From assembly GCF_030378065.1 (NCBI RefSeq), contig NZ_JAUCGJ010000030.1, forward strand, positions 1 to 57,230: a stretch of DNA of 57,230 nt, in the 5' to 3' direction. This DNA comes from Candidatus Venteria ishoeyi (lineage in GTDB: Bacteria; Pseudomonadota; Gammaproteobacteria; Beggiatoales; Beggiatoaceae). Position numbers and translations under genes: made by a program. The notes under the pieces are model-generated. The model did no database searches, was not told the DNA's origin, and saw only the letters and a list, made by a program, of their open reading frames with translations. How positions within the stretch are numbered: the first letter of the stretch is position 1; every line of letters begins with the position of its first letter. Of the stretch, positions 8,617 to 46,433 are shown one piece after another.

Positions 8617-11600
8617 TTAAATTTTTTGTAAAACAGCCGTAATATTCAATCCGTTTCTATCCATAGTATTGACCTTAAAGGAGATTTGGGTTGACAACCA
8701 ATTTAAAAATATTTGAAAACTCTCATCAGTCCAGGTATGTACATGGATATTCTGTTGATTTTCAAATGCTATTTGAATATGCGCTGAATCAGTAATATTT
8801 TTTACATTTTTAAAATAGTCAGCATAATTGTTCAAAGATACCTGTGTGGTTTTTTGTGAGTATTTTTCCTTTAGCTCGGATAAGGGGGTTACGGCACGTT
8901 CTCTATCAAAACATTCGCGTTTATCCGGCACCATCATATAGACAATACCACCGGGTTTAACCACGCGTAACCATTCTTCAATTGCCCGTCCAGGGTTTGC
9001 CAAATGCTCAATCAAGTGACTGTTACAGACAAAATCAACGCTGTTATCTTCCAGGGCAGAAAGATCATCGCCATTACTGATAATACTGACATTGACAATT
9101 TTTTCGAGCGGCACATTCTGATGGCTTGCATATTGTTTTTGCAGGGAGGGTGTATCCATGCGATCAACATACAGCATTTGGGTCTGATCATTGATTGGAA
9201 ATGGTGCGTGTAATGCACCAATTTCTACACCAGTACCTGATAAGTATTGTTTAACAAAGGCCTTCACGTCACTGGGAATCACCAGTGTTTGATTAAAAGA
9301 AAAAGGTGCGCCAAGTGTTTGCATTGCTTGGTTTTGTAAGCCCTGATAAGCAGCAACAAAATCACTGGCACAATGTTTTAGAATGTGTTTTTCCTCCAGT
9401 GTAGCAAAAGCATTTTGAGCTAATTTTTCACGTAAAGCCTCATCTTCAATCAATGATTTCATCGCCTGATACCAGGCTTTTGTGGTATTTTTAACCAAAA
9501 AGCCATTATCTCCATCGCGCACAACCGCACGGTAAGGAGTAATATCACTACAAATTGCGGGTATACCCAGTGCGGCATAATCCAGATACTTGATATAACT
9601 TTTACTGCGGTTAAACGGTGTTTGCTCCAATGGAATAATACCAAAATCCCAGCGGTTGTTGCGGCGAAACCATTGTACAAATTTTAAATAGGCATCATCC
9701 TTGCTGCTGATGCCTTCAATTTTAAGAATATTGGCAAATTTCTGGAAGCTTTGATTGGTATCGCTAATACCGCCGATAATGTCGAGTTCAATATTTGTTT
9801 GGGAACTGGCATAGTCTTTTTTTAATTGCTGCCAGGCTTTGGTGATTTCCTTAAGATCACGTTCATGCGTCTTGGTACCCATATATAAAATACGGATGGG
9901 ATCACTGGCATTACGCGTGGGTTGTGGGCGACTGAAGCTGTTTCCTGCTGCCTGCAACCAGATTTTTTCATCATGTGCATTCGGCACCGATACCACGTCC
10001 TGATTATAAGCTGACATGGTTTGTTTGAGTTGTTCAGAGCTGACGACAATGCGATCTGCGGCTTTGGCAAGTGCTTCCAAGGCATTAATATTATCTGCAC
10101 GATAGGTCACATCTTTGGCTTTTTTATGGTGCAGATTGAGCAGATCATCATCCATTTCCAACACCAGTTTCAAGCCTTTTTGCTGGCAATGTCCAACCAG
10201 TTTTTTAACAAAATCTGGATGCGGCAAGGTGGCGCGTTGTATGACGATAATACCAGTATCCACACTCAACAGATCTTTGGGATCGGTGAACACCTGCAAG
10301 CAAAGTTGATCTTTGACTGATTTATGTAATAAGGGCTGTAATAAGCGGATGCTGGCAGATCCCGTAGGCATACCACCACGTTGCACAGCTACCAACAATG
10401 ACAGGTGTAATTTATGTGGCGCGTTATTCCAGTCCGGACTATTGTATGCGGCAAGTTTATCGTTACAGACAACGGGCTTGGCTTGCCTTGCTTGTTTCGC
10501 CAGCATCAGATGGAATATTGCCAGTTCCGATAAGGCGGCGCGTGGCACGCTGTAGTTTTTAGCGGTATTTAATGCCTGCTCACGCAACTGTTGGAACAGG
10601 GATTTATTATCAATCAGGCTTGTTAACGCCGTTTGCAATACTTTCTGATTGCGGGTATCAACAATTAGCGCATTGCTCTTATCTTTGGCATATTCATGCA
10701 CCCCGCCTTTTTCTGGCAGAATCGGTACGCAGCCGCAGGCCATGGATTCCAGGCCGGTGCGCCCAAACGCCTGATAATCTGAAAAATCGATAAAAATGTG
10801 TGCCTGGTGATATAAAGCCGCGACTTCTTCACGGGTGAGAATACCGTGGTTGCGATAAGCAAAATCATGCTCCAGTTCTTGCAGGGCTTTATCCTGGCAG
10901 CCGAATAAATCAATACCGATTTTATTACCATAAATCTGGCTGATGTATTTCAATACTGACATAGTTTTTCCCGCACCACGCCTTGGTGTTGCCGGTCGAA
11001 TCATCGCCACAATACGGATCTGCTCAGTACCGGGCAAACTTGCAGGAGGATGAAAAATGATACGATCCAAACCTGGCGATACCTTATGCATCTTAACCTG
11101 ATGTAACTCATCAACGGTTTGACACAACCAGTCGGTTTTGGCGAATAAGCACATATTGGGAATCAAGGTATAAGATTCCAATGCAATTTTTAGCTTATCT
11201 GGGCGGATATTGGTGAAAAACCACGGCTCATAATCCTGCACATAATATGCGGCAACAATATCCGGGTATTTTTTGAATACGGGTGCAAGCAGGCGTGGCG
11301 AGGACCAGACCGTTGCTACCAGCACATGCACTTGGGCCGCTTCCTGGTATAAATGATTCTGGTTTCTATAAAAGAAAAATAAATCCTCTTTATAAAGCTC
11401 AGGATAATAACGTGCGTATTCCCCGGCATTTTCCGCCATGGTTGCTATCCGTGCATCCACTCCCAGGCTGCGCATTCCTGCGCATTCCTGCACAATGGAA
11501 TGGATGCCACCCGCCACACCGCCCACGGGTAATACAAACAAAATACGCCAGGCATTTTGTGCCTGTGGCAACGCTTTTCCGCTTAACCAACTATTTAAAC

Positions 11601-13839
11601 GTTCTCGCATCCCAGATAACACCGGATTCTGGCGCAGATTCTGGGTCAAGGACTTAACCTTGTCCTCGCCGTGTTTGTTTTTCAGCGCGCTATCGCCGGC
11701 TTTGGCTAAAACGGCGCGGCGCTCATGGCTGTAGCTTTTAGACTTGGCATGATATACATAGAGTTGATCGGCAATCGCCAGCTTAAAACCCGCATCCCCG
11801 GCGCGCAGGCAATAATCATTTTCTTCGCCATAGCCTTTAGGAAAGTTTTCTTCATCCAGATAGCCAATTTTATCAATCAATGCCCGCTTCACAGCAAAAC
11901 AAAAGCCGTTAACGATAGGCACAATCGGAAACTGAAAGGCTGATGCCTGATACACCAGTTCCGCCATATCATTAACTGTAAAACCTTCCGGTAATTCATT
12001 AACCGCCCAATCCCCATTTTCAGCAAAACGCTCGGGTACGGATTGCCAGCTTGCGGCATTGGATAAAGCGCCGATAATACCGATTTCTTGTCGGCTTTGA
12101 CCACAGGCCACTAAATGGCTGAGCCATAAACGCGGCACGATGGTGTCGCTGTTGAGTAATACCACATAATCTGCTTTAGATGCACGCAGACCTTTGTTGG
12201 CAGCTTTGGTATAGCCTTGCGCGCTTGCGTTTTCCAGTAATACTGTGCTGGGATGCTGTTGGCAGAAGGTTTTCAGGAATTCTGTGGTAGGGGCTTCCGA
12301 GCCATCGTTAACCAGATATAAGGCATAAGGCTCAATGGTATTTTCGATAATTGAAGCCAGACAGTTTTTGACGTCCTCCAGCGCATTATGAATACACACG
12401 ACAACATCAATACTGGGTAATTGTTGCAGGTTTTGCAGGCCCGCCAGGGGTTTTTTAGTACCAGACAGTGTTTGTTCCAGGCCATAGTGAACTTTTTCCC
12501 GGCTTAAGTTACGAAATTCTTCGGCAATTTCTGTGATGTGCTGCTGGGCACCTAATGAAGGTTGGCGTAATAATAAACGTTCAGCCAGATTGACTAAACC
12601 GCGTCCAGCTTTCCAACTGACCGAGTTAAATACGGCTTCGGTATCACTGATGAGATGGCGCATTAAACGCCGGGTATGATTTAAATGCCGATCATGAATA
12701 CGCAAAGCGTCTAATTGCTGCTGGTTTTCCTGCTGTAATTTTTGACCCGTATTTTGCAATTGTGTTTGTGTCTGTTGCAACTGTTTAAGTGTTTGATCTT
12801 TTTGTACCAATAACTGATTTTTTTCCGTCAATTGCTGTGACTGCTTAATATTAACCGCTTCCAGTGCCTGCTGTTTTTCTTCCTGGGCTTGACGATAGGC
12901 CTGCTGTTTTTCTTCCTGGGCTTGGCGATAGGCCTGCTGTTTTTCTTCCTGGGCTTGACGATAGGCCTGCTGTTTTTCTTCCTGGGCCTGGCGATAAGCT
13001 TCAAATTCCGCGCTCAAGTCCCAGATTTTTTCCTGACTTTGTAAAATCTCTATAGCACCCGCAGACAATTCAAATTCTGGAAGATTTTCCAGGCTGTTGG
13101 CTTCTATTGCCGTAAGCAGTGCCTGATCCAGGCGTTGCTGTGCAGTAGAAATTATATCCTGCTGTAAATCTTCTGCACCGTGTTGATGAAATAATGAAGG
13201 GTCAATAAATGCTAAAATTTCACGTTCACTGGGGAGGTGTAAGGCATTAACGCCTAAAGCCTGCAATTGTGCATATAAAGTTTTTGTCGTGGCTATGGGA
13301 TCGGCCAGCATAGCTTCATGTTTAACCAATATCCCTGGTAAATTACGCATGGCGCGCAGTGTTTCTACGGTATATTTCTCCCACAAGGCCAGACTAAAAG
13401 ACAGTGGGAAGCCATTGCGTTTTTGCAAAGACTGGGCAATCTGGATAGGGCTGCGGTACACATAAACATAAACAGGCACTTCCAGTAAATGCTGCCACAT
13501 GGGAAATAACAGGCAAAAACGTGGCTCTTTTATGACCCAGGGGCGGTGAGCATCCATTTCCAGCAAAACTTTTCCCGCTTCACTGAAAAAACGTTTTTTG
13601 GCATCTTCAGGAATTTGATCAAAATGAAAATCAGCAACCCGGTTCCAATCGGCTTTGGCGGAAAATAATAAGGCATCATTCAGATCACGAATATCCCGCC
13701 GCTCCCAGAAACCTTTGGGATTTTCTTCATTTGCACCGGTTGATTTACCTTCAGCACCAAAATATAGGCCCATCAAATTTAACATGCGGGTGACCACAGA
13801 GGTTCCTGAACGGTGCATTCCCAGTACAAACACTTGCAT
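8617..13839 (-). CDS. 1740-residue glycan-assembly fusion: sulfotransferase, coiled coil, GT2, two GT4-like, methyltransferase
   Basis: Domains in order: P-loop sulfotransferase (about 1-260; GMHRSGTS at 7-14, the PAPS-binding loop, and a YRSPIQIAQSL motif); a glutamine/glutamate-rich coiled coil (about 275-400) containing four 11-residue repeats YRQAQEEKQQA; a family 2 glycosyltransferase (about 470-720; VVVCIHNALEDV, LVNDGSEAP, LLNSDTIVP); a first GT4/GT1-like module (about 760-1130; FVLPVGGVAGGIHS and FGRTGLESMACGCVPILPEKGG); a second such module (about 1145-1490; YLDYAALGIPAICSD); and a SAM-dependent methyltransferase (about 1525-1740; GVEIGALHAPFP, NSHLIEHLANPGRAI, VKPGGIVYM). It is soluble and without a signal peptide. 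It could assemble, methylate and sulfate one surface glycan. The leading gene of its strand, divergent from the idr-like operon. Confidence 0.8.
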   Translation of the reverse strand: MQVFVLGMHRSGTSVVTRMLNLMGLYFGAEGKSTGANEENPKGFWERRDIRDLNDALLFSAKADWNRVADFHFDQIPEDAKKRFFSEAGKVLLEMDAHRPWVIKEPRFCLLFPMWQHLLEVPVYVYVYRSPIQIAQSLQKRNGFPLSFSLALWEKYTVETLRAMRNLPGILVKHEAMLADPIATTKTLYAQLQALGVNALHLPSEREILAFIDPSLFHQHGAEDLQQDIISTAQQRLDQALLTAIEANSLENLPEFELSAGAIEILQSQEKIWDLSAEFEAYRQAQEEKQQAYRQAQEEKQQAYRQAQEEKQQAYRQAQEEKQQALEAVNIKQSQQLTEKNQLLVQKDQTLKQLQQTQTQLQNTGQKLQQENQQQLDALRIHDRHLNHTRRLMRHLISDTEAVFNSVSWKAGRGLVNLAERLLLRQPSLGAQQHITEIAEEFRNLSREKVHYGLEQTLSGTKKPLAGLQNLQQLPSIDVVVCIHNALEDVKNCLASIIENTIEPYALYLVNDGSEAPTTEFLKTFCQQHPSTVLLENASAQGYTKAANKGLRASKADYVVLLNSDTIVPRLWLSHLVACGQSRQEIGIIGALSNAASWQSVPERFAENGDWAVNELPEGFTVNDMAELVYQASAFQFPIVPIVNGFCFAVKRALIDKIGYLDEENFPKGYGEENDYCLRAGDAGFKLAIADQLYVYHAKSKSYSHERRAVLAKAGDSALKNKHGEDKVKSLTQNLRQNPVLSGMRERLNSWLSGKALPQAQNAWRILFVLPVGGVAGGIHSIVQECAGMRSLGVDARIATMAENAGEYARYYPELYKEDLFFFYRNQNHLYQEAAQVHVLVATVWSSPRLLAPVFKKYPDIVAAYYVQDYEPWFFTNIRPDKLKIALESYTLIPNMCLFAKTDWLCQTVDELHQVKMHKVSPGLDRIIFHPPASLPGTEQIRIVAMIRPATPRRGAGKTMSVLKYISQIYGNKIGIDLFGCQDKALQELEHDFAYRNHGILTREEVAALYHQAHIFIDFSDYQAFGRTGLESMACGCVPILPEKGGVHEYAKDKSNALIVDTRNQKVLQTALTSLIDNKSLFQQLREQALNTAKNYSVPRAALSELAIFHLMLAKQARQAKPVVCNDKLAAYNSPDWNNAPHKLHLSLLVAVQRGGMPTGSASIRLLQPLLHKSVKDQLCLQVFTDPKDLLSVDTGIIVIQRATLPHPDFVKKLVGHCQQKGLKLVLEMDDDLLNLHHKKAKDVTYRADNINALEALAKAADRIVVSSEQLKQTMSAYNQDVVSVPNAHDEKIWLQAAGNSFSRPQPTRNASDPIRILYMGTKTHERDLKEITKAWQQLKKDYASSQTNIELDIIGGISDTNQSFQKFANILKIEGISSKDDAYLKFVQWFRRNNRWDFGIIPLEQTPFNRSKSYIKYLDYAALGIPAICSDITPYRAVVRDGDNGFLVKNTTKAWYQAMKSLIEDEALREKLAQNAFATLEEKHILKHCASDFVAAYQGLQNQAMQTLGAPFSFNQTLVIPSDVKAFVKQYLSGTGVEIGALHAPFPINDQTQMLYVDRMDTPSLQKQYASHQNVPLEKIVNVSIISNGDDLSALEDNSVDFVCNSHLIEHLANPGRAIEEWLRVVKPGGIVYMMVPDKRECFDRERAVTPLSELKEKYSQKTTQVSLNNYADYFKNVKNITDSAHIQIAFENQQNIHVHTWTDESFQIFLNWLSTQISFKVNTMDRNGLNITAVLQKI
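12868..12999 (-). repeat. Four in-frame 33-bp tandem repeats
   Basis: Units begin at 12868, 12901, 12934 and 12967 and are almost identical. Each encodes YRQAQEEKQQA on the minus strand. They lengthen the coiled coil between the sulfotransferase and the first glycosyltransferase of the large fusion protein. As 33 is a multiple of three, copy-number change would alter linker length without breaking the frame. Confidence 0.85.
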
Positions 13840-14264: not shown

Positions 14265-15368
14265 ATGAATATCAAACTCACCAGCCGACGGACACTTCTG
14301 GCGACAAGTTTAGCTGTCGTTTTAGGCTCGTTTTCTGTTGCCAGTGTCGCGGAGTCTTTGCCAGCATTGAAAATCAATGAGGCAAAAGCAGCATTAGGTA
14401 AGCGTTTATTTTTTGATAAGCGTTTATCGGGCGATGCGGCAATCTCTTGCGCAACTTGTCATCAGCCTGAGCACGGTTTTGCCCATCCCGACGCATTATC
14501 ACCCGGTTATCCCGGTAACAAGCATTTTCGTAACAGTCCTACCGTCATTAATTCCGCACATAAAAAAGTCTGGTTCCATGATGGTCGTTTAGGTACCAAC
14601 TTAAACGATGTCACCCGTGAAATGTTGACTGAAGATTATTTAATGAATATGGACATGCGCATTATGCAGGAACGGGTCAAACAAGATCCGGTCTATGTCA
14701 AAATGTTCAAAGACGCAGGTTATGGTGAACCTTCTAACGGTTCCGTGCGTAAAGCCATTCCTGAGTACTTAAAAACCTTAACCTCTAAGAACGCACCTTA
14801 CGATACCGGAAAAATGTCCACAGCCGCGAAGCGTGGACAAAAAATCTTTAACGGTAAGGGCGGTTGTTCTTCCTGTCATAGCGGTGCAAACTTCACCGAC
14901 AATAAACCCCATAACACAGGCGTTGCTGAAAACTTTGATGTTTTCTTAGATCCTATGCGCCATCAGGCATTTATTGCTTATGCGATGTTCATGGGTGTTG
15001 AAAACTACATGAACTTAAAGCGTGATCCTGGTGCTTATGTACAGTGGAAAAAAGCTGATTTCTCCAACATGGGTACGTTTATCACCCCAAGCCTGCGTGA
15101 GTTAAAACAAACTGCACCTTATATGCATAATGGCATGATCAGCACGCTGGATGAAGTGGTTGAGTTTTATAACCAGGGTGGCGGTCAGGACAGCCATAAA
15201 GATGCTGCTTTAAAACCTTTGAAACTCTCTGCTAAAGAGAAAAAGGATTTGGTGGCTTTTCTGGAATCGCTGTCGGGTGATCAATTAACGGGGCCAGAAC
15301 ATGTCTGGACGGAAAAATATCCTGATGAATATCCCGTTATCGCTGATTGGAACAACGTCAAGAATTAA
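14265..15368 (+). CDS. idrP: Di-haem cytochrome c peroxidase-family protein, IdrP-type
   Basis: A 367-residue periplasmic protein of the CCP/MauG family. The N-terminus has a signal peptide with a twin-arginine-like SRRTLLATS start and a probable cleavage at SVASVAES. Two c-type haem sites are visible: CATCH at 62-66 and CSSCH at 201-205. Family signatures LGKRLFFDKRLS and TAPYMHNGMISTLDEVVEFYN are intact. The ATG at 14265 has a strong AAGGAGG 8 bp upstream. It is the first gene of a tight four-gene operon with a second peroxidase, a Rieske subunit and a molybdopterin subunit, the content of iodate reductase clusters, where IdrP1/IdrP2 are proposed to remove H2O2 or reactive by-products. I cannot say which of the two is P1. 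A general CCP or a MauG-like function are alternatives. Confidence 0.85.
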   Translation: MNIKLTSRRTLLATSLAVVLGSFSVASVAESLPALKINEAKAALGKRLFFDKRLSGDAAISCATCHQPEHGFAHPDALSPGYPGNKHFRNSPTVINSAHKKVWFHDGRLGTNLNDVTREMLTEDYLMNMDMRIMQERVKQDPVYVKMFKDAGYGEPSNGSVRKAIPEYLKTLTSKNAPYDTGKMSTAAKRGQKIFNGKGGCSSCHSGANFTDNKPHNTGVAENFDVFLDPMRHQAFIAYAMFMGVENYMNLKRDPGAYVQWKKADFSNMGTFITPSLRELKQTAPYMHNGMISTLDEVVEFYNQGGGQDSHKDAALKPLKLSAKEKKDLVAFLESLSGDQLTGPEHVWTEKYPDEYPVIADWNNVKN

Positions 15369-15382
15369 TGAGGAGCAAGGTT

Positions 15383-16594
15383 ATGATTAAATTTAGACCA
15401 CTGTCATCAGGGCTTGTGACTCTTGCTGTAGCGGGCATCATTACCGGATGCACGATGGCAACGGCTGAAACAGAGTCTGCCAAATCGGCTGCAAGCACTG
15501 CGGGTGGCCCGACTTTGGCCCCCTTAGATAGTATTAAAATGCCAATTCCACCAGATAATAAACAAACCGACGCAAAAATTGCTTTAGGCAAGTTATTATT
15601 TTTTGATCCACGTTTAGGTGGTGATGCTTCAATTTCCTGTAGCAGTTGCCATGATCCCGAACAGGGCTGGGCCTGGGCGGAAGATTTCTCCCGTGGTTAT
15701 CCCGGTACCGTGCATTGGCGTAACTCCCAGTCCATTATCAACTCGCAATACTATGGCAGACAATTCTGGGCAGGTGCCGCCGCTTCCGGTGAGAAACAAG
15801 CACCTTCTGCGGCTAAAGGTGGCGTTGCCGGTAATGGTGAAAACGACATCATGGAAGCGCGTTTAGCGTTAATTCCTGAATATCGTAAAGCCTTCAAAGA
15901 AGTGTTTGGTGATGAATGGCCATTAATTGGTAACGCCTGGCGTGCAATTGCTTCATTTGAACGTACTTTAGCGCAAACCGATACACCTTTGGATAATTAC
16001 CTGAAAGGGGATAAAACCGCGCTGTCTGAAGAGCAAATCCGTGGTAAAGCGGTATTTGAAGGCAAGGGTGGTTGTGTCCAATGTCATAATGGCGCATTAA
16101 GCTCTAACGAAGACTATGTCAACGTTGGCGTACCACCAGCAACACGCTGGCAGGAAGATGGTTTAGCACAAATCACCTTCCGCTTTGAGCAATATGCCAA
16201 AGGCCAGACTGAAGAAGGTTATCGCAAGGCAAAAAGTGATTGGGGTTTGTATTACCGCACTAAAAATAAATGGGATAAGGGCAAATTCCGCGTACCCAGC
16301 TTAAGATACACCAAATACACCGCACCTTATATGCACAACGGTGCATTCTACACCTTTGAAGAAGTGGTGGATTTTTATAACAGTGGTGGCTTTGATGAGG
16401 AAGGTCGTACGACTTTATTCCCGGAAAATAAAGACAAACGGATGAAACCTTTAGGTTTGACAGAAGCTGAGAAAAGTGACTTAGTGGCTTTCCTTGACGC
16501 ATTCTCCGGTGAAGAAATCATGATGGATAAACCTACCTTGCCAGAATATGCACCTTTGTTTACCAAAGCTGAGTTGGAGGCGGTGAAAAAATGA
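15383..16594 (+). CDS. idrP: Di-haem cytochrome c peroxidase-family lipoprotein, IdrP-type
   Basis: A 403-residue CCP/MauG-family protein from the ATG at 15383, which has AGGAG seven bases upstream; a longer frame from 15347 would overlap the previous gene and bury the signal sequence. The N-terminus is a lipoprotein signal with lipobox around C23 (GIITGC, then T), predicting lipid anchoring, probably to the outer membrane. Haem sites are CSSCH at 86-90 and CVQCH at 231-235. The family segments LGKLLFFDPRLGGD and TAPYMHNGAFYTFEEVVDFYN are present. It is related to but distinct from the preceding protein and ends overlapping the Rieske gene by 4 bp (ATGA), showing tight coupling. Role by analogy with IdrP1/IdrP2. 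Confidence 0.85.
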   Translation: MIKFRPLSSGLVTLAVAGIITGCTMATAETESAKSAASTAGGPTLAPLDSIKMPIPPDNKQTDAKIALGKLLFFDPRLGGDASISCSSCHDPEQGWAWAEDFSRGYPGTVHWRNSQSIINSQYYGRQFWAGAAASGEKQAPSAAKGGVAGNGENDIMEARLALIPEYRKAFKEVFGDEWPLIGNAWRAIASFERTLAQTDTPLDNYLKGDKTALSEEQIRGKAVFEGKGGCVQCHNGALSSNEDYVNVGVPPATRWQEDGLAQITFRFEQYAKGQTEEGYRKAKSDWGLYYRTKNKWDKGKFRVPSLRYTKYTAPYMHNGAFYTFEEVVDFYNSGGFDEEGRTTLFPENKDKRMKPLGLTEAEKSDLVAFLDAFSGEEIMMDKPTLPEYAPLFTKAELEAVKK

Positions 16595-17166
16595 GCGAAC
16601 AAAAAAAGCGTTGTGATACGCCAAAATCACATAATGCTTGTATGATGAATCGACGCGACTTTATATTGTTCAGTTCAGCGGCGATTGTAACAACAAGTAC
16701 TATCAGTTTAACCTTATTACCCGGCACCGCACATGCAGCCGAGCAAAAAGCACAAATTGCCGGTTATCCACGCAAGAAAATTGGCAAGCTCAGCGAATTA
16801 AAAGACAATCAACCGGTTGATTTTAATTACCCTGATGATAAAGGCAGTTGCACCCTGGTGAAAATGGGTGTTGAAGCGGGCGGCGGTATTGGCAATCAAA
16901 AAGATGTGGTGGCTTTTAATTATCTTTGCACTCATCAAGGTGGGCCTTTACAAGGTACTTATCAAGCCACTGATGAACACCGCACCTTAGGGCCTTGTCC
17001 TTTGCATCTGTCCCTGTATGATTTGCGCAGACACGGCATTATCGTTTCCGGTCAGGCCTATCAAAGCGTACCGCAGGTATTGCTGGAGGTTGACGGTGAT
17101 GATATTTACGCAGTGGGCATGATGGGACTTATCTTTGGTCGTAATAAAAACATAATGGATGCTTAA
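16591..17166 (+). CDS. idrB: Rieske iron-sulfur subunit, IdrB/AioB type
   Basis: A 191-residue small subunit carrying a [2Fe-2S] Rieske cluster that passes electrons between the periplasmic electron pool and the molybdopterin subunit. A twin-arginine signal is clear: NRRDFILFSS at 20-29, a hydrophobic stretch, and AHA before the mature part. Cluster ligands are C113-T-H115 and C136-P-L-H139. The two extra cysteines that form the disulfide in bc1 Rieske proteins are absent (glycine follows in CTHQGG). In the AioAB/IdrAB family this Tat signal exports the whole heterodimer. ATG at 16591 overlaps the previous stop; a start at MMNRRDF (16645) would shorten the leader and is also possible. Confidence 0.88.
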   Translation: MSEQKKRCDTPKSHNACMMNRRDFILFSSAAIVTTSTISLTLLPGTAHAAEQKAQIAGYPRKKIGKLSELKDNQPVDFNYPDDKGSCTLVKMGVEAGGGIGNQKDVVAFNYLCTHQGGPLQGTYQATDEHRTLGPCPLHLSLYDLRRHGIIVSGQAYQSVPQVLLEVDGDDIYAVGMMGLIFGRNKNIMDA

Positions 17167-17176
17167 GGAGGCTAAT

Positions 17177-19876
17177 ATGTCAAATGATATTTACACGCCA
17201 CAAGACCATGTGCCTTTACCCCCTAAAGATGCGGAAGTCTTAACCACTGCTTGTGATTATTGTATTGTTGCCTGTGGTTATAAAGCTTATCGTTGGCCGA
17301 TTGGCAGCGAAGGTGGGCCTAAAGCCGCAGATAATGCTTTTGGGATCGATTTTCCTTCTAATGTCTTGCAGGCATGGGTCGCGCCCACACAACACAATGT
17401 GGTCATGCACAAAGGCAAAAAACACAATCTGATTGTGGTGCCTGATAAAGATGCCACCGTTGTCAACAAAAACGGGGACTCTTCTATCCGTGGTGGTTTG
17501 CTGGCACAAAAGTGCTTCAATCCAGATACCCCGACCAAGGATCGTTTGCAAAAACCTTTGGTACGTATTAATGGTGAATTACAGCCCACTTCCTGGGATG
17601 ACGCCTTAGATATCGCCGCAGCACTGGCAAAACACGTCATTGCCAAACACGGTGCCAACGCTTATTCGGTTAAGACCTACTCTTACCAGTTTGTGGAAAA
17701 CACCTACGCGATTACCAAATTTGCGCGCCGTCATGTGAATACCGCAGCATTCACCTTCCACGATACGCCATCGGATGTCACCTCAACGCCTGGGTTTAGA
17801 GATGCAGGTTATGACAACTTTGGGCCGTCTTATGATGACTGGGGCAACGCGGAAACCTTAATGGTTTGCGGTACCGACCCTTACGAAACCAAAACCATTT
17901 TATATACCCAATACCTCATGCCTGCATTGGCTAGAGGGCAGAAAGTGGTTATGCTCAATCCACGAGAAACCGCTGGCGTGGCACATGCGAAAAAACATGG
18001 TGGCTTGCATTTGCAGCTCTATCCTGGCACCGACACTTTAGTGGTTGGCGCAATCACCCGCGTGATTCTGGAAAATGGCTGGGAAGATAAGGAATGGGTT
18101 AAGAAATGGGTGAACAATAAATGGGAATCCAATTCCGGCTTTGGTCAGGGCACCCGTAACACGCCTTGGCAGTGGCGCTCAACCTGGGGTAAATTCCAGA
18201 CCAAAGGTTTTGAAGACTACAAAAAATGGTTGTTATCGCAAGACGAATATAAGGCAGAAAATGCCGCGAAAGTGGCTGGCGTCAGTGCTGATGACATCCG
18301 TACCGCAGCAAAATGGATGGCCAAACCCAAAGCCGATGGCAGTCGTCCAAAAACCTCTATCGGGATTGAAAAAGGCTTTTACTGGTCAAACAATACCGGT
18401 AACACCAATGCTATTTCTTCACTGGCAACCACCGTAGGCGCTGGCGGCAGACCTGGGCAAATGGTCGGGCGTTTTGGTGGACACCAACGCGGCGGTACTG
18501 GCGGCGGTAAATACCCACGTGCGAAATCACCAGAAAAAGTACCGGGTCGGCGTAAACGCTCCTTAGATACTGACCGCTGGTTGGTTTCTGGTCATACCCG
18601 TATGGCGCATGTGGTGGGTACCACCTGGGTACAATCCATGACCGGTTCCGAGGGTTTGGCGGCGAAATTCCACGAACTCGTGGTAGCTAACCCCAATCAG
18701 CCCAAAACCAATAACAAAGCAGATATTATTGCCGCGTTAAAGGCACGCGCTGATTCTGGTGGCATGGTCGTCATTGACCATGATATTTACCTGCGTGATC
18801 CGATTGGTGCTAAATTTGCTGATATTATCTTCCCCGCCGCAACCTGGGGCGAAGAAGACTTTATCCGCGCCAATGGTGAACGCCGCCTGCGTCTGTATCA
18901 GAAACTGGCTGATGCGCCGGGTGAAGCCAAACCGGATTGGTGGATTATTGCGCAACTGGGACAGCGTATGGGCTTTGATGGCTTTGATTGGCAAAATGCC
19001 AATGATGTTGCCGAGGAGTCTTCCCGTTTCAGTCGCGGTAACCGCAAAGCCTATCACATGATCAAAGTGGCGGCTCATGCAGAAGGCAAAACCCTGCATC
19101 AAAAAATGCGTGAACTGGGTACTACCGGTATTCAAGGGCCAACCTTCTACAACTATAAAACGGGCAAACTCTCTGGCTCCAAGCGTTTGCACGATACCAC
19201 GCTGACTCCGGAACAATGTGCGGAACGCGGTGCACCGATTGGCGCGAATATGGTCAACAAGAAAATGACCCATTTCAACAGCCAAACCGGTAAAATCAAC
19301 ATCCAGAAACATCCCTGGGGTTTATATTCTGATATCTGGGAATTTGTTCAGCCTAAAGATGATGAGGAATTATGGCATACCAATGGTCGTATCAATGAAA
19401 TCTGGCAAACAGGTTTTGATGATCGCGAGCGTCGACCTTACATCAAACAACGCTGGAGCCATCAGTTTGTTGAGATTCATCCCGCAGATGCAAAAAAACG
19501 CGGCATAGAATCTGGTGACAAGGTATTGGTATATTCTGATCGCGTACCAGCTTTTGAAGACACGCTAGTCGGTGTGGGGGGAGATGACTTCCAATTCTCA
19601 GAATTGATGAAAAATGGTCATATCAAACTCCTTAAAGGCGCATATGAAGCCGTTGCTTTGGTTTCTGACGTGATTAAACAAGGTGTATTGTATGCCGATG
19701 CCTTAAACACTGATCAGCCTTCCAACTCAGTGCAAGTGCGCGTGGTGGATAACATCAGCGGTAACTATAACTACAAACTCGGCTCCGCCAAAATCAAGAA
19801 AATTGGCGAATCCGAGTTTAAGAAAGAGTTTAAGCGGATGTCATTTGTGCCACGTAATATTGTGACCAAGGCGTAA
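17177..19876 (+). CDS. idrA: Molybdopterin oxidoreductase large subunit, candidate iodate reductase IdrA (AioA-like)
   Basis: An 899-residue DMSO-reductase-superfamily enzyme, from the ATG at 17177 with AAGGAGG five bases upstream. CDYCIVAC (C26, C29, C33) followed by serines at 102-103 in SSIRGG fits the [3Fe-4S] arrangement of AioA, where a serine replaces the fourth cysteine. Overall layout is AioA-like and automatic annotation would probably say arsenite oxidase. By my recalled alignment, the arsenite-pocket Arg/His are kept (R432, H436 in GRFGGHQ), but the His and Glu of AioA are T202 (SDVTST) and N214. That, with two peroxidase genes in the operon, points to IdrA, reducing iodate in the periplasm with bis-MGD molybdenum. 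It has no signal peptide and should be co-exported with the Rieske subunit. Followed by a strong terminator. Confidence 0.82.
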   Translation: MSNDIYTPQDHVPLPPKDAEVLTTACDYCIVACGYKAYRWPIGSEGGPKAADNAFGIDFPSNVLQAWVAPTQHNVVMHKGKKHNLIVVPDKDATVVNKNGDSSIRGGLLAQKCFNPDTPTKDRLQKPLVRINGELQPTSWDDALDIAAALAKHVIAKHGANAYSVKTYSYQFVENTYAITKFARRHVNTAAFTFHDTPSDVTSTPGFRDAGYDNFGPSYDDWGNAETLMVCGTDPYETKTILYTQYLMPALARGQKVVMLNPRETAGVAHAKKHGGLHLQLYPGTDTLVVGAITRVILENGWEDKEWVKKWVNNKWESNSGFGQGTRNTPWQWRSTWGKFQTKGFEDYKKWLLSQDEYKAENAAKVAGVSADDIRTAAKWMAKPKADGSRPKTSIGIEKGFYWSNNTGNTNAISSLATTVGAGGRPGQMVGRFGGHQRGGTGGGKYPRAKSPEKVPGRRKRSLDTDRWLVSGHTRMAHVVGTTWVQSMTGSEGLAAKFHELVVANPNQPKTNNKADIIAALKARADSGGMVVIDHDIYLRDPIGAKFADIIFPAATWGEEDFIRANGERRLRLYQKLADAPGEAKPDWWIIAQLGQRMGFDGFDWQNANDVAEESSRFSRGNRKAYHMIKVAAHAEGKTLHQKMRELGTTGIQGPTFYNYKTGKLSGSKRLHDTTLTPEQCAERGAPIGANMVNKKMTHFNSQTGKINIQKHPWGLYSDIWEFVQPKDDEELWHTNGRINEIWQTGFDDRERRPYIKQRWSHQFVEIHPADAKKRGIESGDKVLVYSDRVPAFEDTLVGVGGDDFQFSELMKNGHIKLLKGAYEAVALVSDVIKQGVLYADALNTDQPSNSVQVRVVDNISGNYNYKLGSAKIKKIGESEFKKEFKRMSFVPRNIVTKA

Positions 19877-19890: not shown

Positions 19891-19922
19891 CCCGATCAGT
19901 GTTGCATACACTGATCGGGTTT
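19891..19922 (+). terminator. Rho-independent terminator of the idr-like operon
   Basis: A perfect 11-bp stem CCCGATCAGTG/CACTGATCGGG (19891-19901 with 19909-19919), seven-base loop, then TTTAT. It begins 14 bp after the stop codon of the molybdopterin subunit. Confidence 0.8.
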
Positions 19923-20048
19923 ATAGGAGCAAGAATTTTATAACTTCAGCAACTTGGCTGGTCTTTTTCTCCATTTTCTGCGTTCCAAAAACAGTTACAT
20001 AGCTTGTGCCTGACCGAAAACCCTGAGAAATGAAATTTTCACTCATAA
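19923..20048 (-). mobile_element. Partial, rearranged copy of the 164-bp MITE-like element
   Basis: On the minus strand relative to the full copies. From ATAGGAGCAAGAATTTTATAAC through GTTACATAGCTTG it follows the element closely, then diverges; the other end keeps only ATTTTCACTCATAA (about 20035-20048). The left end starts directly at the tail of the idr-operon terminator. Confidence 0.65.
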
Positions 20049-20330: not shown

Positions 20331-20494
20331 TAAGGAGTGAGGATGAAATAAATGCAGAAACTGGGCGCAGGATTTTTATTCATTTTCAAGGCGTGAAAAC
20401 AGGCGCATAGCAAGCTATGTAACTGTTTTCACAACGCAGAAAATGGAGGAAAAGACCAGCCAGGTTGCTGAAGTTATAAAATTCTCACTCCTAA
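20331..20494. mobile_element. 164-bp MITE-like element, copy 2
   Basis: Full-length copy with ends TAAGGAGTGAGGAT and ATTCTCACTCCTAA, nearly identical to copies 1 and 3. It lies between the idr-like operon and mtaD, just past the 3' end of mtaD. Confidence 0.8.
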
Positions 20495-20516
20495 GTTATA
20501 AGTAAAAGCTGAAAAG

Positions 20517-26655: not shown

Positions 26656-28125
26656 ATGCAAACCGCTAAAACCAATCTTGACTACACCAGCCTTGAGTTA
26701 TTACGCCAAACGCATCCTGCCTGGCGTTTATTATGCTCGCCTCATGCCGCACTGGTGGCAAGTTTTTTGAACCGTATTTTTATTGTGCCTAACGTGCGCA
26801 CGATGGCACAAAGTAATCTGGTGGAGTCTCTGGAAGATGAGTTATTTGCCCTGCGCGAATATCTGGGCGCGGAAGCCTTCCCCAAACTCGCCCGTGATTA
26901 TTTAAATGACTGGGCGCAACCTGAGCGGGGTTGGTTGCGCAAATTTTATAGGCAGGATTCTGATGAGCCATATTTTGACCTGACCCCAGCCACGGAAAAA
27001 GCGATTAGCTGGCTGGAAAGCCTCAGTGCACGCAGTTTTGTGGGCACGGAATCGCGTTTGCTCACCTTGTTTGAATTGCTCAAGCAAATGAGTCAAGGTA
27101 GTGAAACCGACCCGCAACTGCGAATTGCAGAATTACGCAAACGCCGTGATGAGATTGATACAGAAATCGCGCGTGTGTTAAGTGGGGATATACCGCTGCT
27201 GAATGCAACCGCCTTAAAAGATCGCTTCCAACAGTTTACCCAGCTTGCGCGTGACTTGTTAACCGATTTCCGTGAAGTGGAGCAGAATTTTCGGGTGCTG
27301 GATCGGCGGGTGCGCGAGCGCATTGCGCAATGGGATAGCGGCAAGGGCAGTTTGTTGGAACAGATTATGGGGGAGCGTGATGCAATTACCGATTCAGACC
27401 AGGGCTTGAGCTTTCGCGCGTTTTGGGATTTCCTGATGTCCAGCCAGCGCCAGGAAGAATTGTCCACGCTGTTGGAACGAGTATTGGCTTTGCCACCAGT
27501 CGCGGCACTACACCCAGATGCGCGGCTGTACCGGGTGCATTATGACTGGCTGGAAGCCGGTGAGCATACGCAACGCACGGTAGCGAATCTCAGCAAGCAA
27601 CTCAGGCGTTTTCTGGATGATCAAGCCTGGCTGGAAAACCGCCGCATTATGGATATTCTGCACGACATTGAAAAAAAAGCCCTGGCACTGCGGGATTCAG
27701 CGCCAGAAACTGAAATCATGTATATTGCAGATACCAGCGCCAGTATTAATTTACCGCTGGAGCGCCCGTTGCATACGCCCACCGCCAAACCCCGCATTGA
27801 AAATATTGCTTTAACGGCGGGAGACAGTGAAGTAGATACCAATGCCTTATTTTCCCAGGTGGTTATTGATAAAAGCCAATTAATTCATCACATTCAGCAT
27901 ATTTTGCAAGATCGCGTGCAAGTGACTTTACGCGAAACCTGCGAATTACGACCTTTGCAGCACGGGCTGGCAGAACTGGTGACTTATTTACAGCTTGGTG
28001 ATGTCGGTTTCAAAACCATGATTGATGAAACGATAACGGACACCATCATCTGGCAAAGCAGTGATAAAACTGGGCAAGCATGGGCGAAGCAAGCACAATT
28101 ACCGCGTGTCATTTTTGTAAGATGA
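26656..28125 (+). CDS. jetA: Wadjet component JetA (DUF3375)
   Basis: A 489-residue cytoplasmic protein of the DUF3375 family, the kleisin/MukF-like subunit of Wadjet type I. N-terminus YTSLELLRQTHPAWRLLCSPHAALVASFLNR is, in pieces, typical of the family; the middle is helical with long charged stretches (RIAELRKRRDEIDTEIARVL), fitting a MukF-like core that bridges the JetC ATPase heads. First of four consecutive genes on the plus strand in the order A-B-C-D, which confirms identity. Known function: the complex extrudes DNA loops and cleaves small circular plasmids. The ATG at 26656 lies two bases past the M28 stop; there is no obvious ribosome site. Confidence 0.85.
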   Translation: MQTAKTNLDYTSLELLRQTHPAWRLLCSPHAALVASFLNRIFIVPNVRTMAQSNLVESLEDELFALREYLGAEAFPKLARDYLNDWAQPERGWLRKFYRQDSDEPYFDLTPATEKAISWLESLSARSFVGTESRLLTLFELLKQMSQGSETDPQLRIAELRKRRDEIDTEIARVLSGDIPLLNATALKDRFQQFTQLARDLLTDFREVEQNFRVLDRRVRERIAQWDSGKGSLLEQIMGERDAITDSDQGLSFRAFWDFLMSSQRQEELSTLLERVLALPPVAALHPDARLYRVHYDWLEAGEHTQRTVANLSKQLRRFLDDQAWLENRRIMDILHDIEKKALALRDSAPETEIMYIADTSASINLPLERPLHTPTAKPRIENIALTAGDSEVDTNALFSQVVIDKSQLIHHIQHILQDRVQVTLRETCELRPLQHGLAELVTYLQLGDVGFKTMIDETITDTIIWQSSDKTGQAWAKQAQLPRVIFVR

Positions 28126-28187
28126 GTGCGACTATACCTTATTAATAAACCTTCTGGTGAACCTCAAAACAAAGTTGATAATATGCT

Positions 28188-28805
28188 ATGGTGACACAAG
28201 AACCGATTGCAGATAACAATGATTTTTCCCTGGTCGTCATTGCTTTACTAAAAGGCATTGTGTATCAGGAAAATGATGATAAGTTATGGCATCGCTTGAT
28301 GAATCTGCAAGCGCGGGTGCGTGATTACATCCGTGTATTGGGGCTGGAACTGGTGCTGGATGAAGCCGAAGGTTATGCGTTTTTACGCTCGCGCCCAACA
28401 ACTGAAGATGAACCGGAAAGCAAGCTGCCGCGCCTGATTACTCGGCGCGCCCTATCCTTTCCAGTGAGTTTATTGTTGGCTTTATTACGCAAGAAACTGG
28501 CAGAATTTGATGCCAGTGGTGGTGATACCCGACTGGTGCTCAGCCGCGATGATATTGCGGAATTAATACGTGTATTCCTGCCTGACAGTAGTAACGAAGC
28601 CAAATTAATTGATAAGGTCGATACCCATATCAATAAAATCATTGACCTGGGATTTTTGCGCCGCTTAAAACCCGCGACAGGCAGTACCAGCAAACAAACA
28701 AATTTTGAAGTACGGCGCATTATCAAGGCTTTTGTGGATGCACAATGGCTGGCGGAATTTGATGCGCGGCTGGAAACTTACCGGCTGCATCTTCAGGAAA
28801 AATAA
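28188..28805 (+). CDS. jetB: Wadjet component JetB (DUF4194)
   Basis: A 205-residue DUF4194 protein, the MukE/KITE-like subunit of Wadjet. It shows the usual tandem winged-helix composition: FSLVVIALLKGIVYQENDDKLWHRL in pieces near the start, RALSFPVSLLLALLRKKLAEFD in the middle, and a C-terminal helix-rich end (FEVRRIIKAFVDAQWLAEF). It lies 62 bp after jetA and 42 bp before jetC, and partners JetA at the ATPase heads in solved complexes of the family. Length is normal for the family and no defect is visible. Confidence 0.85.
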   Translation: MVTQEPIADNNDFSLVVIALLKGIVYQENDDKLWHRLMNLQARVRDYIRVLGLELVLDEAEGYAFLRSRPTTEDEPESKLPRLITRRALSFPVSLLLALLRKKLAEFDASGGDTRLVLSRDDIAELIRVFLPDSSNEAKLIDKVDTHINKIIDLGFLRRLKPATGSTSKQTNFEVRRIIKAFVDAQWLAEFDARLETYRLHLQEK

Positions 28806-28847
28806 TATTTAGAATTTTACACCCCGCAGGAGAACATTAGGCTGTTG

Positions 28848-31800
28848 ATGAATAACGCAGAAAACCTGGATTTTATAAGCAATGATGTCACTGATGACAC
28901 CCTGGCAGGCTTTCGTCTGCAACGCCTGGAAGTATTCAACTGGGGCACTTTTGATCAACAAGTCTGGACGCTGAACTTAAAGGGTAAAAACACCCTGTTG
29001 ACCGGTGATATTGGTTCCGGCAAATCCACTTTGGTGGATGCCGTCACCACCCTGTTGGTGCCAGCCCACCGCGTGGCTTATAACAAAGCCGCAGGCGCGG
29101 ATAATAAAGAACGCTCCTTGCGCTCTTATGTGCTGGGCTATTATAAATCTGAGCGCAATGAGGTCAGTGGCAGCGCCAAACCCGTACCGTTGCGTGATAA
29201 TAATGCCTATTCCGTGATTCTGGGCGTGTTCCATAATGCCGCTTACGCGCAAAACATTACTTTAGCCCAGGTTTTCTGGTTTAAAAGTGGGCAGGGGCAG
29301 CCGGAGCGTTTTTTTGTTGGCGCGGAGCAGGATTTAAGCATTGCAACGGATTTTTCCCAGTTTGGTGCTGATATCACGGGTTTGCGCAAAAAATTACGTC
29401 AGCGCAAGGCCACCATCTTTAACAGCTTTCCCCCGTATGGAGCCTGGTTTCGCCGCCGTTTTGGCATTAACAACGAACAGGCGCTGGAATTATTTCATCA
29501 AACCGTGTCCATGAAATCAGTGGGCAATCTGACGGACTTCGTGCGCAAACATATGTTGGAGCCGTTTGATGTTGCCCAGCGTATTGCCGACTTAATCACG
29601 CATTACGAAGACTTAAACCGGGCACATGAGGCGATTCAAAAAGCCAGTAGACAAATTGAACTGCTCACCCCACTGGTGGATGATTGCCAGCGTCATGAGG
29701 CACTGACGGCGCAGGTGGCGGTATTACGTAATTGCCGGGAAGCGTTGCGGGTTTATTTCGGGCAGTTAAAACAGGATCTGCTGGACAAAAAACTTACCTC
29801 AATTAATACGGAATGGCAGCGCCATAACCGCAAGGTTGAGCGTTTGCAAAGCCACTTGCATGAGCTTGAAAACCAGATGCGGGCATTGCAGCAAAATATT
29901 GCCGATAATGGCGGTGATCGTCTGGCGCAGCTTGATGAAGCAATACGCCAGAAAACCGCTACGGGCAAAAAATGTAAAGAAAAGGCTGAGCGTTATGCAA
30001 GCTTATCCAAGCTTATCGGCGAAAAACCTGCTGTGGATGAGCATGGTTTTTTGCAACAAAAGCAGTATTTTTCCGGGTTGGCAGAAACGGCGCGGGAACA
30101 GGAAGCCGATTTGCAAAATCAGCTCACGGAATACAGCATGGATTTACGCCAAGGTCGTGAAAAATATCAGGAAATTGCCAATGAAATTAAAAGCCTTAAA
30201 TCACGGCGCAGCAATATTGATACACAGCAAATCCGCTTACGCACGGCCTTATGTCAGGCACTGAATATTGCAGAAACGGATATGCCATTTGTTGGCGAGT
30301 TATTACAAGTGCATGAACAGGAACGTGACTGGGAAGGCGCGGCGGAACGCCTGTTACGGCATTTTGGCTTGTCGCTGCTGGTACCTGACAAGCTTTATCC
30401 CAAAGTGGCGCAATGGGTGGATAAAACCCACCTTAAAGGACGCCTGGTCTATTTTCGGGTGCGTCAAAGTGTTAATAATAAAATGCCGGACTTGCACCCG
30501 GACTCATTAGCGCGGAAACTTTCCATCAAGCCCGATTCACCATTTTATGACTGGCTGGCACAAAATCTGGCAGGCAGGTTTAATATCGCCTGTTGTATGA
30601 CGCAGGCGCAGTTTCGCCGCGAAGCCCGCGCCGTTACCCGCGCCGGTCAAATCAAAATGCCCGGTGGACAGCATGAAAAAGATGATCGCTATCATCTGGA
30701 TGACCGCAGTCGGTATGTGCTGGGCTGGAGCAATCAAGAAAAAATTGCTGCACTGGAAACCCGCACCAGCCTGCTGGAAGAAAAAGTAGTCAAGCTGGGT
30801 GCGTTGGTTGCAGAGATTCAAGCTCAGCAACAAACCTTAACTGAACGCCTGCATAGTCTCTCTAAATTGGAAGAATATATTGATTATCAGGAGCTGGACT
30901 GGCGAGCTATGGCGGCGGATGTCGCCCGCCTGGAAGATGAAAAGCGCGCGCTGGAAAATGCTTCCGACAGGCTGCAAAAATTGACTGAGCAATTAAAGGC
31001 AGCGGAAGCGGAAGCCGATGACACCAAGCAACAGTTAGACAAGCATAAAGACCTGCGTTCTAAAAGCGAGCAAAAGAAAATTGAGGCGCAAGACTTACGC
31101 GCGCAAATCCAGGCTTTATTGGCAGAAGCTGAGTATGAAGTTCATGCCGGATATTTTAAGCAACTGGAAAAGATGCGCGCAGAAGCCCTGCCGCAACAGT
31201 CATTGCGCGTGGAATCCTGCGATAACCGGGAACGTGACATGCGCGACTGGTTACAGCGCAAAATTGATGCAGAAGATAAAAAAACCAAAAATCTCAGTGA
31301 AAAAATTATCAAAGCAATGGTTTCTTTCAAGGCTGAATATTCGTTGGAAACCAATGAAATAGATGCCAGCCTTGCCGCAGCTTCTGAGTATCAGGCCATG
31401 CTCAACAGCTTGCAAGCGGATGATCTGCCGCGTTTTGAAGCACGTTTCAAAGAATTATTAAACGAAAATACTATTCGTGAAGTGGCTAATTTTCAGGCGC
31501 AGTTGGCAAAAGAGCGGGAAACGATTAAAGCGCGTATCAAACTGATTAACGAATCGCTGATTCAAATCGACTATAACCCCGCCCGTTATATCGTCCTGGA
31601 AGCGCAAGCAACGCCGGATGCCGATGTGCGCGATTTCCAGACGGAATTGCGTAGCTGCACCGAAGGCGCGTTGACCGGCTCGGATGACAGCCAGTATTCT
31701 GAAGCCAAATTTTTGCAGGTAAAACAGATTATTGAGCGTTTTCGCGGGCGTGAAGGTACTTCCGAGCAAGACCGCCGCTGGACCAACAAAGTCACCGACG

Positions 31801-32246
31801 TGCGCAACTGGTTTGTGTTTGCTGCCAGCGAGCGTTGGCGGGAAGATGACAGCGAGCAGGAACATTATTCCGACTCTGGCGGCAAATCCGGTGGGCAAAA
31901 GGAAAAACTGGCTTACACCATTCTGGCGGCAAGTCTGGCCTATCAATTCGGCCTGGAATGGGGCGCAGTACGCTCCCGCTCTTTCCGTTTTGTGGTGATT
32001 GACGAAGCATTTGGACGCGGCTCCGATGAGTCCGCGCAATATGGACTGACATTGTTTGAAAAGCTGAATCTGCAACTGTTAATCATCACCCCCCTGCAAA
32101 AAATTCATATTATCGAACCCTTTGTCGCCAATGTCGGTTTTGTGCATAATGAGGATGGACGCACATCCCGGTTGCGTAATATTTCAATTGAGGAATACCG
32201 TGCAGAAAAACAAAAACAAGAGGCCGCGCTGGACGCATCCATCTGA
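28848..32246 (+). CDS. jetC: Wadjet component JetC (SMC/MukB-like ATPase)
   Basis: A 1132-residue SMC-like ATPase, the motor of Wadjet. Walker A GDIGSGKST at 53-61; ABC signature region SGGKSGGQKEKLAY and Walker B FVVIDEAFGRGSDES near the C-terminus; both halves of the head are intact. Between them are two long coiled-coil arms (about 270-470 and 640-960) around a hinge-like region. The frame opens with TTG at 28845 but ATG at 28848 is the likely start, with an AGG and an upstream GCAGGAG. It ends inside the jetD coding sequence (47-bp overlap), a common arrangement that couples their translation. ATP-driven DNA loop extrusion is known for the family. Confidence 0.92.
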   Translation: MNNAENLDFISNDVTDDTLAGFRLQRLEVFNWGTFDQQVWTLNLKGKNTLLTGDIGSGKSTLVDAVTTLLVPAHRVAYNKAAGADNKERSLRSYVLGYYKSERNEVSGSAKPVPLRDNNAYSVILGVFHNAAYAQNITLAQVFWFKSGQGQPERFFVGAEQDLSIATDFSQFGADITGLRKKLRQRKATIFNSFPPYGAWFRRRFGINNEQALELFHQTVSMKSVGNLTDFVRKHMLEPFDVAQRIADLITHYEDLNRAHEAIQKASRQIELLTPLVDDCQRHEALTAQVAVLRNCREALRVYFGQLKQDLLDKKLTSINTEWQRHNRKVERLQSHLHELENQMRALQQNIADNGGDRLAQLDEAIRQKTATGKKCKEKAERYASLSKLIGEKPAVDEHGFLQQKQYFSGLAETAREQEADLQNQLTEYSMDLRQGREKYQEIANEIKSLKSRRSNIDTQQIRLRTALCQALNIAETDMPFVGELLQVHEQERDWEGAAERLLRHFGLSLLVPDKLYPKVAQWVDKTHLKGRLVYFRVRQSVNNKMPDLHPDSLARKLSIKPDSPFYDWLAQNLAGRFNIACCMTQAQFRREARAVTRAGQIKMPGGQHEKDDRYHLDDRSRYVLGWSNQEKIAALETRTSLLEEKVVKLGALVAEIQAQQQTLTERLHSLSKLEEYIDYQELDWRAMAADVARLEDEKRALENASDRLQKLTEQLKAAEAEADDTKQQLDKHKDLRSKSEQKKIEAQDLRAQIQALLAEAEYEVHAGYFKQLEKMRAEALPQQSLRVESCDNRERDMRDWLQRKIDAEDKKTKNLSEKIIKAMVSFKAEYSLETNEIDASLAAASEYQAMLNSLQADDLPRFEARFKELLNENTIREVANFQAQLAKERETIKARIKLINESLIQIDYNPARYIVLEAQATPDADVRDFQTELRSCTEGALTGSDDSQYSEAKFLQVKQIIERFRGREGTSEQDRRWTNKVTDVRNWFVFAASERWREDDSEQEHYSDSGGKSGGQKEKLAYTILAASLAYQFGLEWGAVRSRSFRFVVIDEAFGRGSDESAQYGLTLFEKLNLQLLIITPLQKIHIIEPFVANVGFVHNEDGRTSRLRNISIEEYRAEKQKQEAALDASI

Positions 32247-43649: not shown

Positions 43650-44555
43650 TTATACGTTACTCATGACTAGAGCCAATCCTGCCAAGGCAATCATCACCGG
43701 CCATTTCCACAACCAGCGCACGGCATCTTCAGTACGGTAACGCCCATAAACATTGGTAATGGAAACAGCGATCAATACCACAGCAAACACCTTGGGCAGG
43801 AATGTCAGCCAGTTTAAGCCACCGCCAAGAAATAAAGTGGTATATAACACGCCCACGGTATAGAGCTGGAAGCACTGCATCACAAACAAAGTGCCCATGT
43901 ATTTACCACTCATTTCCACCATCGGCCCGGTTGCAATTTCAGCGGGGGCGACATACAGCTCAAACGGCTCTTTGCCCAGCATGGCGTGCATGGTCATTAA
44001 ACCGGCAAGCGCGAGCAGTGGCATGGTTGTTAAGCCCCAGCTCTGCAAACCCTGTTGCTGCTGAATTTCAATAATCGTGGGCAGACTGGTAGTGCCGTAA
44101 TGGATGGCAGCACCCGCAACCACGATAACAAAAGGAATGTCATAAGCCAGCATGGAGGTCAGGGCACGGGAAATCCCAATAGAACCATTGGGATTGGCGG
44201 TTTGTCCAACTCCCATTGCCATGCCCAGCATGGGCACCATCAGCAGATACATCAGGGTGAGTAAATCGGCCTGATGGGCAACACCGTCCATACCGGGAAC
44301 GGGTAAAAAAATCTCGCTGGCAATATAACCGCCGAGCAGCATCATCATTGCCACATCATGCATATAACCATGTGAAATTTGCGTTTTTTTGGCGTAGAGC
44401 TTAACGATGTCATACACCGGCTGGAAAAATGGCGGGCCGACGCGGCGCTCAATTTTTGCCCGCACCTTGCGCATCATTAACACCAGCAGCAAACCCACCA
44501 GAAAAGCAACCAGCGGCATCAAGACCAGTTCCAGTAACAGTTCACCTGTATTCAT
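43650..44555 (-). CDS. NuoH/HyfC-like membrane subunit
   Basis: A 301-residue inner-membrane protein of the respiratory complex I subunit 1 family, eight or so helices. The characteristic loop VRAKIERRVGPPFFQPVYDIVKL and the acidic motif KEPFELYVAPAEIATGPMVEMSG are present; the latter matches HyfC/MbhM-type rather than NuoH itself. In complex I and membrane-bound hydrogenases this subunit links the peripheral redox arm to the ion pumps. Here no NuoB, NuoC/D or NuoI homologue is adjacent. It begins 3 bp after the NuoL-like gene, at the 3' end of the Mrp-like cluster. Confidence 0.85.
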   Translation of the reverse strand: MNTGELLLELVLMPLVAFLVGLLLVLMMRKVRAKIERRVGPPFFQPVYDIVKLYAKKTQISHGYMHDVAMMMLLGGYIASEIFLPVPGMDGVAHQADLLTLMYLLMVPMLGMAMGVGQTANPNGSIGISRALTSMLAYDIPFVIVVAGAAIHYGTTSLPTIIEIQQQQGLQSWGLTTMPLLALAGLMTMHAMLGKEPFELYVAPAEIATGPMVEMSGKYMGTLFVMQCFQLYTVGVLYTTLFLGGGLNWLTFLPKVFAVVLIAVSITNVYGRYRTEDAVRWLWKWPVMIALAGLALVMSNV

Positions 44556-44558
44556 AGC

Positions 44559-46427: not shown

Positions 46428-46433
46428 CAGCCA

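Follow-up and report, generated by a model that had tools for sequence, protein, structure and literature searches.

The proven iodate reductases (Idr) of Pseudomonas SCT, Denitromonas IR-12, Azoarcus DN11 and Aromatoleum TC-10 are encoded by four genes in the order P-P-B-A, which specify two di-haem proteins (IdrP), a Rieske subunit with a twin-arginine translocation (Tat) signal (IdrB) and an AioA-like large subunit without signal peptide (IdrA). According to the excerpts of the papers that are cited throughout by PMC number, growth of Denitromonas on iodate needs idrA (PMC8692401), and aerobic alphaproteobacteria from the sea that carry idr genes reduce iodate when oxygen is low (PMC11445184). 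Here we describe an operon of the same content and order in a 57,230-nucleotide stretch of Candidatus Venteria ishoeyi (contig NZ_JAUCGJ010000030.1, our C43; hereafter the window), whose genome is 4.41 Mb in size and 98.8% complete. The host belongs to Beggiatoaceae, the family of giant sulfur bacteria. Judged by sequence, the operon appears to be a sound member of the known Idr family in an interesting host, and it quite probably encodes a periplasmic respiratory enzyme of the iodate reductase type that works along the route proposed below. Reduction of iodate by this enzyme is the best reading and a likely one, yet it is an extrapolation.

The idr operon occupies positions 14265-19876 on the + strand and consists of four intact, tightly packed frames. 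The features are as follows.

14265..15368, + strand: first di-haem protein, 367 amino acid residues, idrP2 by published position; Pfam CCP_MauG at 2.7e-39, two CxxCH motifs
15383..16594, + strand: second di-haem protein, 403 residues, idrP1 by published position; Pfam CCP_MauG at 1.7e-39, two CxxCH motifs
16591..17166, + strand: idrB, Rieske small subunit, 191 residues; TIGR02694 at 128.5 bits (cut-off 95.65), Tat motif NRRDFI
17177..19876, + strand: idrA, catalytic subunit, 899 residues; TIGR02693 at 415 bits (cut-off 359), position in the tree
17783..17785, + strand: codon of IdrA Ser203, at the position of AioA Glu203 in the alignment
19891..19925, + strand: terminator-like hairpin with a short T tail, by RNA folding

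The frames and the Pfam and NCBIfam matches bear out the coordinates and gene families of the original prediction, which had been made from the sequence without database searches and had named two genes of the di-haem peroxidase family, a Rieske gene with a Tat signal and an AioA-like molybdopterin gene. Its tight packing and ribosome sites were also found: from 5' to 3' the genes are joined by a 14-base gap, a 4-base overlap and a 10-base gap, and a ribosome site precedes each of the four starts, AAGGAGG being that of the idrP2 ATG and of the idrA ATG at 17177. The second di-haem gene most likely starts with the ATG at 15383 behind AGGAG, rather than with the mechanically called TTG at 15347. 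IdrA contains the Pfam domains Rieske_3, Molybdopterin and Molydop_binding, and no signal peptide was seen in it. The Rieske motif of IdrB is C-x-H-x20-C-x2-H; in the rows of the marine clade described below the spacing was 18 (64 rows) or 20 (38 rows), and x18 has been published for IdrB of Azoarcus DN11. A lipobox-like ITGC is located near the N-terminus of the second di-haem protein. Lipoprotein character was rejected as a family trait, as such a motif occurred in only 8 of 77 relatives. Of the single terminator predicted earlier, the hairpin stood, with a 12-bp stem at 19891-19919 (-23.6 kcal/mol, z -4.2) 3' of idrA; its T tail (TTTATA), however, is short and the hairpin was absent from the list of the consensus terminator scan. 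A promoter scan gave 13 matches versus 12.4 expected by chance, and the GC profile showed no island-like step.

The order P-P-B-A had been thought to differ from the published one. That claim was wrong, because the name idrABP1P2 had been read as an order: in both Pseudomonas SCT and Denitromonas IR-12 the genes run idrP2-P1-B-A (PMC10989891), and idrP1P2 always precede idrAB (PMC8801600). In Azoarcus DN11 the accession numbers follow the series A, B, P1, P2, consistent with transcription in the direction P2 to A. Among the 80 named loci of this study, all 68 that show the four genes were arranged P-P-B-A, and the other 12 were cut by contig ends. The same order was found on a plasmid of Azonexus hydrophilus. 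AioA loci showed B-A only (five loci), with no di-haem genes adjoining.

The identities between IdrA of the window and 14 AioA rows were 29-36%, and those with seven rows of a second IdrA clade were 49-51%. Two small groups were 50-53% and 56% identical to it, and the other 103 marine rows 63-74%. A careful tree of 49 rows, four of them AioA (NT-26 among them), and a quick tree of 106 rows, seven of them on the AioA side, were built. In the 49-row tree, IdrA-type proteins and AioA were split at 100/100 with the window inside the IdrA branch, and the 106-row tree gave the same split. The original prediction had proposed a comparison with AioA by tree, and the large subunit lies outside AioA, the NT-26 enzyme included. 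In the 49-row tree it falls within a marine clade that unites alpha- and gammaproteobacteria (95/97), and there within the gammaproteobacterial part (100/99). The marine idr loci, such as those of Ruegeria, Pseudovibrio, Moritella and Thiodiazotropha, share with the window the clade, the gene order and Ser203. The second clade includes the Azonexus plasmid locus, where a kinase, a sigma-54 regulator, cytochrome c and moaA accompany P-P-B-A. Given that this accessory set equals the one that papers report around proven loci, the second clade is likely, by synteny, the clade of the proven enzymes and was used as their stand-in. No literature was found on iodate reduction by A. hydrophilus NCP973.

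The molybdenum pocket residues His, Arg and His known from AioA were kept in all 129 aligned rows, and dozens of alignment columns unite the two IdrA clades and are not found in AioA. For position 203 we follow what we take to be the numbering and role of Glu203 in AioA; a literature search for AioA pocket residues by these names found nothing on the topic. This position was Glu in 14 of 14 AioA rows, Asp in 7 of 7 rows of the second clade and in both rows of the group of genomes G038 and G384, and Ser in 102 of 104 marine rows (window included), the other two, from Vibrio, having Ala. Ser was also found in both rows of another family, f111. The Ser203 rows are not clearly one clade, as f111 joins the marine clade in the 106-row tree and the second clade in the 49-row tree. 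Ser203 in the marine clade versus Asp in the other, together with the different neighbours of the two IdrA kinds and a marine clade that holds no placed proven member, would fit an enzyme with the same architecture that naturally acts on a different oxyanion, e.g., bromate or chlorate, with iodate a side substrate at best. We consider this unlikely, because the four genes, their order and the remaining pocket residues are the same, and iodate is the common such oxyanion in seawater (where total inorganic iodine amounts to 0.4-0.5 uM, excerpt of PMC11445184).

The same type of arrangement has previously been assigned to arsenite oxidation. In Thiomargarita nelsonii Bud S10, two aioBA sets were reported in 2016, one of which is preceded by two mauG genes; extra cytochromes were described as well, uspA lies downstream of one set, and a potential for arsenite lithotrophy was inferred (PMC4853749). 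The mauG-mauG-aioBA set resembles the present system in arrangement, family, extra cytochromes and nearby uspA, the comparison being with its published description as an arsenite oxidoreductase. On that reading the window operon would encode arsenite oxidase (AioBA), the two di-haem genes being additions to it, and TIGR02693 and TIGR02694 are indeed above their cut-offs, but these two models do not separate IdrA from AioA. AioBA of NT-26 and Thermus HB8 share with the window the two-subunit build of Rieske and molybdenum proteins and the pocket His, Arg and His. They differ from it by the low identity, Glu203 and the lack of adjoining di-haem genes. The separate branch of the window IdrA also argues against arsenite oxidation, as does a Pfam scan of 24 window proteins, which showed no arsenic gene, and the 2016 paper, in its excerpt, likewise reports that an arsenic island was lacking. 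Such a function is therefore very unlikely here. If the operon encodes an iodate reductase, the published inference for Thiomargarita deserves a second look.

A second IdrA/AioA-like kind was observed at L174 (G038, contig C219) and L175 (G384, contig C78), with IdrB present and Asp203. These stretches of 13 and 19 kb contained no di-haem genes and had the order B-A only. G038 also carries the usual idr operon, and as a guess from the excerpt of PMC4853749, the other aioBA set of Bud S10, which has a large insert, may correspond to the second G038 copy.

Several observations weigh against assigning iodate reduction to the window enzyme. Its IdrA shares only about 50% identity with the clade likely to hold the proven enzymes, no proven IdrA having been placed, and its Ser203 differs from the Asp203 of that clade. 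Both subunits exceed the cut-offs of NCBIfam arsenite oxidase models. The [3Fe-4S] motif is CX2CX3CX69S, one residue short of the published CX2CX3CX70S, a spacing that fits 100 of the 104 marine rows. Many proven loci are accompanied by moaA, cytochrome c and a two-component system, whereas in the window no sensor or regulator gene adjoins the operon, and neither does moaA or a cytochrome c gene. Finally, the masses published for Roseovarius azorensis, another strain with a proven IdrA (99.4 kDa for IdrA and 89.1 kDa for IF-2; PMC11445184), lean weakly towards the Asp203 type: within one family, 14 full-length marine-type rows had IdrA of 99.68-100.45 kDa and three Asp203 rows had 99.17-99.41 kDa, and one marine-type row from a metagenome-assembled genome (L077) had 99.43 kDa. 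Two genomes were considered as R. azorensis, and each agrees in one of the two masses. G800 fits in IdrA mass (99.41 kDa) but not in IF-2 (89.7 kDa), and G600 fits in IF-2 (89.1 kDa) but not in IdrA (99.17 kDa).

Similar to bacterial di-haem cytochrome c peroxidases, the two di-haem proteins of the window have two haem c sites and a CCP_MauG domain. The functional features of such peroxidases include the peroxidatic Gln and Glu and the FWDGR motif. In an alignment of 77 rows per protein with the Nitrosomonas peroxidase (PDB 1iqc) as reference, the first protein had the peroxidatic Gln in 1 row and kept DGR, and the second had the Gln in 74 rows, the D of FWDGR in 1 and the R in none. The peroxidatic Glu was found at its aligned column in 0 of 77 rows of the first protein and 1 of 77 of the second. 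The catalytic Glu might be missing from both proteins, but a conserved acidic residue is located three positions before this column in the first protein (76/77) or four after it in the second (77/77); the Glu may be shifted or misaligned. Thus, the alignment neither confirms nor excludes the peroxidase or detoxifying role that published models give to the IdrP pair (PMC8692401).

Neighbouring genes were clustered in 97 stretches of 3-21 kb, three of which had no residue-203 call. A HEAT-repeat protein (56 loci) or a cytochrome-bd subunit I-like protein (23 loci) was found in 59 of the 81 Ser203 loci, which are not independent (ten or so are Ruegeria-like and a few are double reads of one genome), and in 0 of 8 Asp203, 0 of 2 Ala203 and 0 of 3 AioA loci. 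The other members of this module are two c-type cytochrome proteins, a carboxypeptidase-regulatory-like protein, a NirJ2-like radical SAM protein and a Usp + PCP_red protein. Whereas many marine idr loci carry the module beside the operon, no member was found in the window, and the greater part lies elsewhere in the same genome, on contig C75 (L197 and L198, 74969-88341). The bd-like protein there (78285-80150) is 66% identical, and C75 also encodes a cytochrome c protein, an 803-residue protein that combines three cytochrome c domains with an EB_dh domain, and the HEAT, carboxypeptidase-regulatory-like and Usp + PCP_red proteins; the radical SAM gene was not seen on C75. Among Beggiatoaceae, the bd-like gene and idrA co-occur in seven of eight bd-positive genomes, the eighth being 59% complete (Fisher p 0.0004, uncorrected for kinship). 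We propose that the module may be the electron donor complex of marine Idr. However, 6 of the 13 family genomes with idrA have no bd-like gene, three of them 98-99% complete, and the enzyme must work without the module elsewhere. No literature linking the bd-like module with Idr was found.

In the proposed route, electrons from the quinone pool would reach a periplasmic c-type cytochrome via bc1 and/or the bd-like and multihaem cytochrome c module of C75, and would be handed on to the IdrB Rieske centre and the IdrA [3Fe-4S] centre. Iodate would be reduced at the molybdenum-bis(pyranopterin guanine dinucleotide) (Mo-bisPGD) site to hypoiodous acid (HIO), which would disproportionate to iodide. 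IdrA is predicted to be exported together with IdrB through Tat. Both the HIO chemistry and the co-export have been described for other Idr. The di-haem pair might deal with a reactive by-product or carry electrons. A bolder and rather doubtful extension is that Ser203 (marine) Idr forms a second class of periplasmic halogen-oxyanion reductases with a biochemistry of its own, fed by its own quinol-oxidising complex (bd-like and multihaem cytochrome c) and with a di-haem pair of altered peroxidase site; it would let giant sulfur bacteria, which had been described as arsenite oxidisers, respire iodate. Ser203 and the bd-like module are leads beyond the original prediction and raise the questions of how Ser203 and Asp203 differ in effect, what a di-haem pair with an altered peroxidase site does, and whether the module feeds marine Idr.

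Of 42 Beggiatoaceae genomes, 13 have an idrA-type gene; the genome that contains the window is one of them and gave a single match. The search covered 25 genera, and 25 genera are given for this family in GTDB (PMC11172852, excerpt). Members with loci include Thiomargarita (G033/L011), Parabeggiatoa (G029/L020) and Thiotrichaceae (G034/L009 and G039/L006). At class level, 16 of 369 genomes had a match, again with the window's own included and with G151 showing an AioA-like match only. If iodate is the substrate, mat-forming relatives of giant sulfur bacteria would be candidates for converting iodate to iodide; no literature was found joining Thiomargarita, Beggiatoa and iodate, or Beggiatoa with 'iodate reductase' or 'idrA'. 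Horizontal gain of the operon was considered, as the quick tree paired its IdrA with Thiohalomonas-like rows (96). The careful tree leaves this IdrA unplaced within the gammaproteobacterial part, and one clade with eight other Beggiatoaceae rows was not rejected (p-value of the approximately unbiased test, p-AU, 0.226, 49-row tree). Thus, no claim of horizontal gain is made.

The genes flanking the operon look unconnected with it. A 1740-residue protein, glycosyltransferase-like by eye, is encoded just upstream (8617-13839, - strand), and an amidohydrolase gene lies downstream. Behind idrA is a palindromic repeat of about 165 bp (20331-20495; inverted arm 19924-20006) that resembles a miniature inverted-repeat transposable element. 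It has inverted arms of 83 bases and a strong DNA hairpin (z -5.7), and at least 40 other copies at 96-100% identity were found in the genome (40 of 336 candidates scored). In genome G828, an idrA-type gene is apparently broken, the match lying in two adjoining pieces (L182 and L183, C56 45875-48428). Such a high-copy repeat right behind the operon and broken relatives elsewhere could point to a silent or decaying island, but the four intact frames, conserved motifs and ribosome sites make this extremely improbable, and a working iodate reductase-type operon is the preferred reading. Farther downstream, Wadjet-like defence genes (26656-33462) encode DUF3375, an SbcC-type ATPase and JetD, with a small gene in between (28188-28805). 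A complex I-like cluster at 43650-47894 encodes, one after another, an NADH-dehydrogenase-like protein and two that resemble proton antiporters.

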